NCBI RefSeq assembly: GCF_014931715.1
Contig: NZ_CP063164.1
Location: forward strand, 2,108,001-2,172,000
DNA: 64,000 nucleotides
DNA from: Sulfurovum indicum
Lineage (GTDB): Bacteria; Campylobacterota; Campylobacteria; Campylobacterales; Sulfurovaceae
Reading direction: 5' to 3'
In this document: positions 9,345 through 13,016 of the stretch, piece by piece
Position numbering within the stretch: the first letter of the stretch is position 1
Layout: each line of letters begins with the position of its first letter
Program-made: the position numbers and the translations under genes
Notes under the pieces: model-generated
What the model was told of the DNA's origin: nothing
What the model saw: only the letters and a program-made list of their open reading frames with translations
Database searches by the model: none

Positions 9345-10514
9345 TCACATCCCAGGTAGTCTTGGGATCTTGCCTAGTTTGGAGTTACGGCAGTACCAGC
9401 CCCACCCTTTCTTCATCCAGTGACCGACTACCGGAAGCGGGATCATCTTCCCTCCTTTGCTGCTTCTGTACACAAATGCTGCTCCGTTTCCCGTATCCAT
9501 TACACACAGAATATTCAAATGTTCCATATAGCTCTCTTTGGAATCGATATTTTGCTGATTCTGAAAAATATTGTAGGCTACATTACGTGCCATAACTTCT
9601 GCCACATGCCCCTGCTTTGCTCTCCACTCAGGTCCCATCAGTGATGCTGAATCACCGATGGCATAGATCCCATCAAAATCTTCTACTTCATTATACTCAT
9701 TGGTCACAACAAAACCTGCTTCACTAAGCGGCAGTCCGGACTCTTTAAGAATAGTGTGTCCTGTACCTGCAGAGATGAACATAGTAAGGTCGGATTCGAT
9801 CTTCTCACCATCTTCAAACAGAATACCATCTTCAACAAACTCTGTAATCTTTGAACCGACCTTCTTTTTAATATCTGTCATGCTGAACATCCTGTCCATC
9901 ATCACAAGAGCTTTCTCTCCCATCTTCTGTCCCGGTTTCTCCATTGGAGCAAAGAAGGTAAGTTCAAACTTGTCACGCACTCCTTTCTTTTTCAGAAAAT
10001 CATGTACATTGAACAATACCTCGAAAGCAGGTCCGCCACGTACTGCCGATGAATCTTTAGGGTTCCCGCCAAATCCGAAAGCGAGCTTTCCGCTTCCTTT
10101 GCGCACCAAGGCATCCAGACGATTAAAGAGTTCCGTTGCCTCTTCAGGTTTACCGCATATAGAGAGTGTATGCTCCATCCCCGGATGCTGCATCTTGTCC
10201 TGTCCCATCGCCACAACGATGTAGTCATACCCTTCAAGTGTACGTCCGCTCTCCAGAGTTACTTTTTTCTCTTTGGGCTCCAGTGCCGTGACCGGATCGA
10301 CGATCAGTTTGAAACCATGTGCAAATGCCAGTTCATCCAAAGGCACAGCAACATCCTCCAGAGTGGCATCACCGGTCGGTATCCAAATCGATGTCGGGTA
10401 GATATAGAAAAAGTCCCTGTCGCTGACCAGTGTTACGTCCAACTCATTTTTTCGCAGATAGATCGCTGCTTCCACTCCTGCAAACCCACCACCCAGTACC
10501 AATACTTTTGTCAT
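9345..10514 (-). CDS. FAD-dependent oxidoreductase, sulfide:quinone oxidoreductase-like
   Basis: A 389-aa two-dinucleotide-binding-domain flavoprotein. The FAD-binding GGGFAG motif is at residues 8-13, and the second FAD contact, YAIGDSASL, is at about 284-292. It resembles SQR and type II NADH dehydrogenases. Cysteines at 120 and 337 match the spacing of two SQR catalytic cysteines (about 124 and 347 in the Aquifex enzyme), while nothing matches the middle one (156). Oxidation of sulfide or a related sulfur compound with electrons to menaquinone is therefore likely but not proven. It is the last gene of the CcoG operon. Confidence 0.75.
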   Translation of the reverse strand: MTKVLVLGGGFAGVEAAIYLRKNELDVTLVSDRDFFYIYPTSIWIPTGDATLEDVAVPLDELAFAHGFKLIVDPVTALEPKEKKVTLESGRTLEGYDYIVVAMGQDKMQHPGMEHTLSICGKPEEATELFNRLDALVRKGSGKLAFGFGGNPKDSSAVRGGPAFEVLFNVHDFLKKKGVRDKFELTFFAPMEKPGQKMGEKALVMMDRMFSMTDIKKKVGSKITEFVEDGILFEDGEKIESDLTMFISAGTGHTILKESGLPLSEAGFVVTNEYNEVEDFDGIYAIGDSASLMGPEWRAKQGHVAEVMARNVAYNIFQNQQNIDSKESYMEHLNILCVMDTGNGAAFVYRSSKGGKMIPLPVVGHWMKKGWGWYCRNSKLGKIPRLPGM

Positions 10515-10523
10515 CTCAGGCTC

Positions 10524-10712
10524 CTAGTATTTTATAATATCTGTTCTCACTTTCAATGTATCATCAACCACACTGTTCATACTGATGATACTGTAAAGAG
10601 CACCAATAAGCAGACCGGACAGGATCACGATCCATACCGTCATACGCTTCTCTCTACTCTCCTGGTTATAGTAGTCTTCTATCTTCTCCAGTGTCGGTTC
10701 ATTCTGCATCAT
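10524..10712 (-). CDS. Small single-span membrane protein in the ccoG operon
   Basis: A 62-aa protein with a charged cytoplasmic N-terminus, one membrane helix at about residues 25-43 (VWIVILSGLLIGALYSII), and a short polar tail. It lies 10 bp after ccoG and 10 bp before the flavoprotein gene on the same strand. Its position suggests a role linked to oxidase maturation, but no named family is recognised. Confidence 0.65.
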   Translation of the reverse strand: MMQNEPTLEKIEDYYNQESREKRMTVWIVILSGLLIGALYSIISMNSVVDDTLKVRTDIIKY

Positions 10713-10721
10713 ATTCTCACC

Positions 10722-12179
10722 TTACTTTTTTAACAGGTCTGCACGTGGATAGACAAATACCGTATGTCTTGTGACCACGACCTTCTCTTTGTCATCTACT
10801 GCATACGCTTTGATCGTTACAGGAATCGGTACATCTTTACGTGCATTGTCCGCCAGTTTCTCTTTTGTTCTCAATACAACGACTTTCTTGCGTTTTTTGC
10901 CTGGTGCAATACTGAACGGCTCTTTTGGTCTGACAATCTCGATCTTCTCTTTCAGGTCACCCTCTATCTCGAAGAAGTAAGTATGTCTCTTGCTATCGGT
11001 ATTGGCAAAGAGGAATATATAATCGTTCTCAATCTCTCCATTATCAAGGATCTTATAGAGTCTTGTTGTCTTGTTAATGTTCAACAGCATATTCTCCTTT
11101 GTGCTTCCCATAGCAAAAAGTGCCACAAGCACGAGTACCAACACTGTAAAGTATGCAATCACTTTCGGCCTGAAGATACGAGTCTTTCCTTCATGTCTCT
11201 CCGTCTCTCTTACACTCGACCATTGGACAAGGCTTGGTTTGCCCAATGCACCCATAACTGTTGTACAGGCATCCACACACTCCAGACAGTTGATACACTC
11301 AAGCTGCAGTCCTTTACGAATATCAATGTGTGTAGGGCAGACCGTTACACAGCTTTCACAGGTAGTACACTCTGCATTTGGATTGACAGCAAGCAGTTCT
11401 TTTTGCTTACTGAACTCCTTATGCCTTTCATTCCCATGCCCTTCATAAATCTCCCCTCCACGGATCGGATCATAGATCGCCATCAGTGTATCATCGTCAT
11501 AAAGTACCGACTGTACACGGCTGTAAGGACAGATATAGATACAGAAGTCCTCTTTGATGAACACAATATCCGCGATCAAAAAGAGTGCTGTACCAACCAG
11601 CATTCCTATCAGTACCATATGTTCACTCGGGTTCTGTATATACTGGAAAAACTCTTCGGGAGGAACGAAATACCAGAGGAAATCTGCTGCCGCTATGAAT
11701 GCCAGCACAGACCATAGCAGAATTGCGATCACCTTCTTAACCTTATTCTCCGGTTTGCTCATATCAGGTTCTTTCTGCTTATTTTTGATACGTTTGCGGA
11801 GTCCCAGAAGTTTTGTCTCGATAAAATCTCTGTAGATCACACGAAAAACCGTTTGAGGACAGGCCCATCCACACCATGCTCTCCCGCCCACTGCCGTCAC
11901 AGCAAAGATACCAAGAAAAAGAAGCATAAGCAGGAACGGCATCAGATAGAGCTCCTGCATATCAAATGCTACACCGGCAAGGTGCAGTTTCTTATGGTCA
12001 AAGCTCAATAGGAACAGATGGTTTCCGTTAATGGTGATCCAAGGCATGACCAGTGCTATGACCGTTGCTGCCACATAGGCCCAGTAGCGCTTGATACGGT
12101 ACGGTACCCACCCTTTTAAATACTCTTTTGCCTGGTTTTTTTTAGGCTTTTTCTCTTCAACTTCAACTGCTGCTTCCAT
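10722..12179 (-). CDS. ccoG: CcoG (RdxA/FixG) copper reductase / cbb3 oxidase assembly protein
   Basis: A 485-aa inner-membrane iron-sulfur protein. It has an N-terminal four-to-five helix domain with the WCGWACPQT motif (Cys103, Cys107), a polyferredoxin domain with two CxxCxxCxxxCP-type motifs (CTTCESCVTVCP and CINCLECVDAC), and a C-terminal Ig-like periplasmic domain. The family reduces Cu(II) for insertion into cbb3 oxidase. No ccoNOQP genes are in the window. It follows the recombinase-like regulator by only 2 bp, so the two are co-transcribed. Confidence 0.95.
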   Translation of the reverse strand: MEAAVEVEEKKPKKNQAKEYLKGWVPYRIKRYWAYVAATVIALVMPWITINGNHLFLLSFDHKKLHLAGVAFDMQELYLMPFLLMLLFLGIFAVTAVGGRAWCGWACPQTVFRVIYRDFIETKLLGLRKRIKNKQKEPDMSKPENKVKKVIAILLWSVLAFIAAADFLWYFVPPEEFFQYIQNPSEHMVLIGMLVGTALFLIADIVFIKEDFCIYICPYSRVQSVLYDDDTLMAIYDPIRGGEIYEGHGNERHKEFSKQKELLAVNPNAECTTCESCVTVCPTHIDIRKGLQLECINCLECVDACTTVMGALGKPSLVQWSSVRETERHEGKTRIFRPKVIAYFTVLVLVLVALFAMGSTKENMLLNINKTTRLYKILDNGEIENDYIFLFANTDSKRHTYFFEIEGDLKEKIEIVRPKEPFSIAPGKKRKKVVVLRTKEKLADNARKDVPIPVTIKAYAVDDKEKVVVTRHTVFVYPRADLLKK

Positions 12180-12181
12180 AG

Positions 12182-12859
12182 CTATATCCTTTCTTCATTA
12201 TGATTATTATTATCCTGTTCGAACGGACAGATCAGTACGGTGTTGTCCACACCGGGGATCTGCCGAGGCGAAGATATCTCCATCCAAGACCCTTCCACCA
12301 ACTCCCTGATACCTCTTGACTCGATGTAATCCTTCAGTGAACTGCGGCTTACTCCCAGCTCTCTTGCAATGGCACTTACACTTTTTCCCTCTTTTAACAG
12401 AGAGATGATCTGCGGCTGATAGACATCGAACTTTGAAGAGGAACGGCTCCCTTTGGGACGACCGATCTGTCCTGTCTTGGCTTTCTGTGCCTCTCTGAGA
12501 TCATTGAGCAGAGGAAAGACATCGACCAACACAGCCTCTTTTTTAATAACAGTCCCTGTATTTGCGATATAGAGAACGATTTCCCGGCTCAACATACAGT
12601 TGATCACCTTGACAAGCTCCTCTACTCCGTCACTCAGGATCGCCAAATGCTCGACTACAATCATATCTTCACCTTCATTTAAGGAGTGAAGGAACTTTTC
12701 GAACTCTTCACGCTCTTCAATGGGACGGTTCTTCGTACTGTACTCGATCACCTCTTTATCTATCTGTAACCCTTGTGTCAATGCAAAAGAGAGAATATTA
12801 CGCTGCTGTTGGGACAGGTTGCTGCAATTTGGCATCTGTCTTAAATATGCATAAGTCAT
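12182..12859 (-). CDS. Serine-recombinase-like DNA-binding regulator, apparently without catalytic residues
   Basis: A 225-aa protein. Residues 1-120 follow the resolvase/invertase N-terminal fold (MTYAYLR start, central EDMIVVEHLAILSDG). The linker GRPKGS at 133-138 and a helix-turn-helix at about 158-181 (KSVSAIARELGVSRSSLKDYI) match the resolvase C-terminus. The catalytic serine motif (normally YxRVST) reads YLRQMP, and the LDRLGRS segment reads LAILSDG, so the Ser, Asp and Arg residues of a working recombinase are missing. A role as a transcriptional regulator of the ccoG operon, and possibly of moaC, is inferred. The 40-residue C-terminal tail is unusual. Confidence 0.8.
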   Translation of the reverse strand: MTYAYLRQMPNCSNLSQQQRNILSFALTQGLQIDKEVIEYSTKNRPIEEREEFEKFLHSLNEGEDMIVVEHLAILSDGVEELVKVINCMLSREIVLYIANTGTVIKKEAVLVDVFPLLNDLREAQKAKTGQIGRPKGSRSSSKFDVYQPQIISLLKEGKSVSAIARELGVSRSSLKDYIESRGIRELVEGSWMEISSPRQIPGVDNTVLICPFEQDNNNHNEERI

Positions 12860-12880
12860 AATTCTCCTTTCTCATTTGTG

Positions 12881-12925
12881 GTATTCTACTCTTTTTGATG
12901 TTAAAAATCAATTATAAATTAAATA
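12881..12925 (-). promoter_or_regulatory. Candidate promoter of the regulator-ccoG operon
   Basis: On the minus strand TTGATT and TAGAAT are separated by 17 bases about 30-55 bp upstream of the regulator start, close to a sigma-70 layout. The start codon itself has AAGGAG upstream. Position and spacing are the only support. Confidence 0.4.
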
Positions 12926-12929
12926 TTAT

Positions 12930-12975
12930 CGTCATTTTATTCTTTTTAACGTCATAGTGCATTTATTTTCGTCAT
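12930..12975. promoter_or_regulatory. Three CGTCAT boxes at exact 20-bp spacing (candidate operator array)
   Basis: CGTCAT occurs at 12930-12935, 12950-12955 and 12970-12975, in the same orientation and 20 bp apart each time. The array sits between the divergent regulator gene and moaC, next to a TATGCTAAAAT -10-like sequence for moaC. Spacing of about two helical turns suggests side-by-side binding of one protein, most simply the neighbouring helix-turn-helix regulator. Confidence 0.55.
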
Positions 12976-13016
12976 TTTTTATGCTAAAATGCAAAAAACA
13001 TTATTTAGGACAGATC

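Follow-up and report, generated by a model that had tools for sequence, protein, structure and literature searches.

A Serine Recombinase Fold That Has Lost Its Active Site as a Predicted Transcription Factor of Oxidase Genes in Sulfurovum indicum and Related Campylobacterota

Genes and Predicted Control Elements at the Locus

The window (the whole stretch of 64,000 nucleotides of Sulfurovum indicum DNA that was analysed) carries on its reverse strand a gene for a recombinase-like protein, designated here the regulator, followed by ccoG, a gene for a 62-aa protein (small62) and a gene for a flavoprotein resembling sulfide:quinone reductase (SQR-like). The features located are listed below.

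9345..10514, (−) strand: FAD / sulfide:quinone-reductase-like (SQR-like) gene, the last of the run, with homologues elsewhere that have their own predicted operator
10524..10712, (−) strand: small62, gene for a single-pass membrane-type protein of 62 aa, whose homologue in family f16 has its own operator copy
10722..12179, (−) strand: ccoG, cbb3 oxidase accessory protein (cupric reductase family), TIGR02745 with E 4e-149
12182..12859, (−) strand: recombinase-like regulator gene, 225 aa
12864..12869, (−) strand: ribosome-binding site of the regulator gene, AAGGAG, assigned from the sequence
12883..12888, (−) strand: −10-like element TAGAAT, separated by 17 bp from the −35-like one, consensus match only
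12896..12934, (−) strand: 39-bp inverted-repeat predicted operator TGACGATAATATTTAATTTATAATTGATTTTTAACATCA, with half-sites TGACG and CATCA (E 8e-7 with the operator model R1)
12906..12911, (−) strand: −35-like element TTGATT, between the operator half-sites, consensus match only
12950..12954, (−) strand: second TGACG half-site, in direct orientation with the operator's outer half-site and 20 bp upstream of it
12970..12974, (−) strand: third TGACG half-site, a direct repeat 40 bp upstream, adjoining the putative moaC −10
12980-12985, (+) strand: putative moaC −10, TATGCT

The regulator reading frame ends at 12182 and ccoG, the second gene of the operon, starts at 12179, which agrees with the 2-bp distance given in a preliminary description of this DNA. 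This arrangement was found to be general, with ccoG lying directly downstream of the regulator in 110 of 114 testable loci, nearly always overlapping it or within 60 bp. Several genomes (G152, G224, G309, G166, G183, G209 and G233) had two or three copies of ccoG whose profile scores were identical; one of these follows the regulator and another follows ccoNOQP-like genes. The three copies of G309 are exactly 111,017 bp apart, which may reflect duplication, gene conversion or an assembly effect. The ccoG adjacent to the regulator in G187 (L042:2249-3533, L206) is in fragments, and an intact ccoG is present elsewhere in that genome (C1:133815).

Fold, Lost Active Site and Descent of the Regulator

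The protein comprises an N-terminal recombinase domain (residues ~1–105), a shortened helix E (111–129), a GRPKG arm (133–137), a helix-turn-helix (HTH, 145–181) and a C-terminal tail with the conserved Cys211. Matches above the cut-off were obtained with Pfam PF00239 (Resolvase N, E 7e-9) and PF02796 (HTH_7, E 4e-6). The AlphaFold model, built with 61 aligned sequences, had a mean pLDDT of 79.7 (83–95 over residues 1–100, 82–94 over the HTH and below 50 in the tail) and presented a serine-recombinase fold, with γδ, Sin and Tn3 resolvases as the best structural matches (Z ~10–13) and predicted HTH helices at 145–156, 161–168 and 172–181. The preservation of fold and HTH put forward in the preliminary description was thus borne out, as was its statement that the Ser of YxRVST and the Asp/Arg residues of LDRLGRS are replaced: in the alignment to γδ resolvase, Ser10 corresponded to Met9, Asp67 to Ala, Arg68 to Ile and Arg71 to Asp, the stretch L-A-I-L-S-D standing where the D67-R68-x-x-R71 motif is expected. 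Two features went beyond that description, namely the conservation of the Arg8, Gln19 and Arg45 equivalents, which the window protein retains together with that of Tyr6, and the deletion of the helix E segment with Glu124/Arg125 in this protein and in all aligned orthologues. Judged against the features of an active serine recombinase, the resolvase fold and family and the resolvase HTH were present, and the nucleophilic Ser, the D67-R68-x-x-R71 motif and the E124/R125 segment were absent; on its sequence, the failure of these three defining features indicates that the window protein is not an active serine recombinase.

Of 150 genomes from the same family, 89 contained a match to the regulator; many other families of the order also had orthologues, with Sulfurovum, Nitratifractor and Hydrogenimonas among the named records. 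The orthologues formed one clade (SH-aLRT 100), separate from Arcobacter-type and catalytically intact relatives, and alignment with resolvases revealed the same catalytic losses throughout this clade. Among 115 distinct orthologues, the Ser10 position was never Ser (M, L, I, V, K, T, A, F and others) and the equivalents of D67, R68 and R71 were variable, whereas those of Arg8, Gln19 and Arg45 were kept in 112, 113 and 115 sequences, respectively. No conserved Ser was found near the Ser10 position in this set, and recombination through another nucleophile was rejected on these grounds. The HTH and DNA arm were the most conserved part of the protein, with twelve residues (G133, R134, P135, G137, S140, S142, D145, R172, S174, D177, S181 and R182) invariant in 115/115 orthologues despite an overall identity of 30–45%. 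A recent mobile insertion or a relic was also considered and rejected, the regulator being a single copy in the window genome and its HTH conserved clade-wide. Cys88 was present in 113 and Cys211 in 112 of the 115 orthologues; both are absent in the f17 orthologues L085 and L086, which are not linked to ccoG and keep the operator, and in the L208 orthologue Cys211 was not aligned, Cys88 not being among its losses.

A Predicted Operator in the Regulator Promoters

The motif TGACGA/T was picked out by unbiased k-mer counts in the upstream regions. In the window and in many Sulfurovum promoters, TGACG half-sites lie at −75, −95 and −115 from the start codon, 20 bp apart, and the element common to all families is the inverted repeat TGACG-N28/29-C(G/A)TCA. 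Of 149 orthologue promoters, 141 contained this repeat in its loose form, whereas dinucleotide-shuffled versions gave 0.95 on average; for the strict form (120/149) and the 20-bp direct repeats (94/149), the shuffles gave none. Neither operator nor direct repeats occurred in the promoters of more distant resolvase-like genes (0/12). The orientation and spacing of the operator relative to the gene were constant over the 149 promoters, and its copy in the window falls inside 12860-13016, the region that the preliminary description had singled out for DNA binding.

In most relatives the −35 box TTGACT (TTGATT in the window) lies between the half-sites, with the inner half-site inside the −35/−10 spacer. 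In L085 and L086, the N29 repeat is the same but spans a −10-like element rather than the −35, so that it is an independent unit whose conservation does not simply follow from that of the promoter; at these loci, where neither ccoG nor moaC adjoins, the operator stays with the regulator gene. Assignment of the operator to the divergent moaC was rejected, since families without an adjacent moaC keep it. The extra 20-bp TGACG repeats (12950-12985 in the window) were found at 65 of 90 loci with a divergent moaC versus 2 of 23 without, a difference confounded by phylogeny, and they reach the putative moaC promoter, so that moaC may be co-regulated. In some f16 regulator promoters (L061, L067 and L070), the region between promoter and start codon holds a second TGACG, in part a second inverted repeat, located about 52 bp downstream from the first half-site of the operator.

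Sites Elsewhere and the Predicted Regulon

A sequence model of the operator (R1) was built from 33 regulator promoters only. In the window genome, the sole strong hit was the regulator promoter (E 8e-7), the next place being intragenic (0.06), and within the window's own family hits below 1e-4 came almost exclusively from regulator promoters, so that there the regulator looks local to one operon. In 59 regulator-bearing genomes, 17 trans sites were found at E < 1e-3, 16 of which precede small62 (7), cytochrome bd-type (6) or SQR-like (3) genes; in the window, homologues of the small62 and SQR-like targets follow ccoG. Among the six bd-type sites, that of G410 stands before a NifX-like gene only, with no cydAB seen adjacent. 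Weaker sites (E 0.001–0.03) added three small62 operons, three SQR-like genes, one bd operon, DUF6858 in two families and one SLAC1 transporter; genes for SLAC1 are also found next to the regulator in L085/L086 and, in L208, behind regulator-ccoG. The N29 spacing was present in almost all trans sites, and a control model of reversed sequence (R2) gave no hit below 3e-3 in the same genomes. R1 hits in coding regions (L225, L226, L234, L251-L253 and L262) were treated as chance, and TGACG-N15-TGACG proved too weak as a regulon finder, most of its hits beyond the regulator promoter looking like coding sequence. The earlier designation as regulator of a CcoG operon fits the window genome, with its single strong site, and is too narrow for other families, where the predicted regulon extends to cydAB, SQR-like, SLAC1 and DUF6858 genes.

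By our own tally of 90 genomes, which includes several R1 training promoters (the trans sites were outside training), an R1 hit below 1e-3 was present in 32 of 37 genomes with the regulator versus 3 of 53 without. In genus g27, G165 and G196 have both regulator and sites, and G182 has neither; in the matched genomes without the regulator gene (G182, G195 and G200) the site was absent or weak. Five regulator-bearing genomes (G010, G020, G184, G208 and G233) gave weak or no R1 hits.

No operator was found before ccoG in f17. The f17 regulator of L085 (4510-6552), which lacks the C-terminal tail and both conserved cysteines, is flanked on one side by SLAC1/DUF6858 and on the other by SCO1/SenC and PCuAC copper chaperones, whose homologues in C. 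jejuni support cbb3 activity (PMC8267372).

Proposed Function and Alternative Readings

The clade-wide catalytic losses, the adjacency to ccoG, the conserved predicted operator, its co-occurrence with the regulator gene and the trans sites argue strongly for the reading that the preliminary description had ventured, and we regard it as very probable that the protein is a domesticated serine recombinase which no longer cuts DNA and instead regulates transcription in a sequence-specific manner, with a regulon for terminal oxidases and oxidase assembly. From these sequence data we infer direct binding of the operator by the regulator protein. The 39-bp inverted repeat, TGACGATAAAA-N17-TTTTATCGTCA, would be occupied by a dimer whose HTHs contact the outer TGACG and whose GRPKG arms reach into the A/T-rich inner portion; by analogy with known complexes, a TGACG half-site that runs on into an A/T tract would suit a resolvase HTH together with a minor-groove arm. 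Binding would control the regulator's own promoter and hence the operon regulator-ccoG-62aa-SQR-like, and in related families the same regulator would also govern operons not linked to it, with genes for the 62-aa protein, the SQR-like flavoprotein, cytochrome bd oxidase (cydAB), DUF6858 and SLAC1. Where the −35 box falls within the site, autoregulation would most likely mean repression; a steric block would be the simplest reading of that position and would mirror Tn3 TnpR at res (PMC7157771). The small62 promoters of f16 have the site centred near −73, some 41 bp ahead of an extended −10, and activation would be possible there; with these two positions, the geometry accords with either sign of control.

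The best-surviving alternative, in our judgement improbable, is that another transcription factor binds TGACG-N29-CGTCA and that the recombinase-like protein is merely its target, for example as an oxidase-assembly helper. This would accord with the regulator gene being always the first behind the site and with the indirect way in which the protein's own binding was deduced; nevertheless, the site is absent or weak in the three matched genomes without the gene and persists without ccoG linkage in L085/L086, so that a second factor would need to be gained and lost together with the regulator gene, and the marked conservation of HTH and arm, with a half-site plus A/T tract matching the binding mode of resolvases, also favours the regulator itself. 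Much less probable is that the protein binds DNA in a structural or architectural capacity (NAP-like), or that it is a decaying relic with no regulatory role. Resolvases can act architecturally, and the catalytic function is lost here, but the twelve invariant HTH/arm residues do not fit a relic, and essentially one strong site in the window genome, with a small coherent promoter set in others, does not fit a NAP. A still active site-specific recombinase with a non-canonical active site, inverting or excising DNA at repeats, is barely credible, even with the Arg8, Gln19 and Arg45 equivalents conserved and inverted and direct repeats in the promoter, against the lack of a conserved nucleophile, the loss of D67/R68/R71, the deleted E124/R125 segment, an operator fixed in orientation and spacing over 149 promoters, and trans sites that are single and not pairs around an invertible segment.

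As for the signal to which the proposed transcription factor would respond, redox or copper is suggested by the predicted regulon (cbb3 assembly, bd oxidase, copper delivery and a quinone-linked flavoprotein) and by the paired cysteines, and we infer possible sensing through Cys88 and Cys211; the cysteines are a correlation only, and the f17 orthologues without both keep the operator. The fuller proposal, that this is a new transcription-factor family acting as a main oxygen/redox (or copper) regulator of terminal oxidases in mostly environmental Campylobacterota, with Cys88-Cys211 sensing and a 39-bp operator, is put forward tentatively, as a possibility with the balance somewhat against it.

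Comparison with Known Systems

Like Tn3/γδ resolvase (TnpR), the window protein combines a serine-recombinase fold with an HTH and is associated with sites in a promoter region between divergent genes. TnpR autoregulates, repressing tnpA and tnpR from res (PMC7157771). It is catalytically active and borne on a mobile element, whereas in the window protein the active site is lost and helix E is cut short at its end, its gene is chromosomal and vertically kept, and its predicted targets are respiratory. In both fold and sequence, Sin recombinase (site II complex, PDB 2r0q) ranked with the nearest matches. Its dimers occupy half-sites arranged as direct repeats when they form a regulatory complex that is not catalytic (PMC2428073), but at site I Sin is an active resolvase, and the window protein has in addition an inverted predicted operator with N28/29 between half-sites. 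The best NCBIfam match was the master DNA invertase Mpi (NF009949; residues 1–101, E 1e-15), with 57.6 bits against a cut-off of 272 and the catalytic residues missing. Predicted control of terminal-oxidase genes from sites near −35 is shared with the FNR/ArcA-type regulators of other proteobacteria, whose protein fold is unrelated.

A second resolvase-like family (L072-L080, L090 and L091, e.g., L074:4402-5040, + strand), mostly from f8, has lost the catalytic Ser (Asn/Gln or other) and the Asp (LNVFGRT). Its genes lie upstream of rplI-hslV-hslU and, where checked, divergent from ubiX, and their promoters carry a different repeated motif, AACATTTTGTATAA, which suggests a parallel domestication.

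Significance

No description of a recombinase-like regulator beside ccoG or in Campylobacterota was found in the open-licence papers searched, and the part consulted of a review on the co-option of mobile genetic elements makes no mention of serine recombinases as host transcription factors. If the proposed function is correct, it would be a clear prokaryotic case of domestication, in which a recombinase fold became fixed as a chromosomal transcription factor over many families, with operator and regulon readable from the sequence; the 39-bp operator makes the hypothesis quickly testable. According to a review, Campylobacterota encode no ArcA, FNR or NarP orthologues (PMC6682613). Against this background a dedicated oxidase regulator of different descent is of interest, and the protein would be a candidate to fill a known gap, the control of cbb3 assembly and bd oxidase genes in Campylobacterota.
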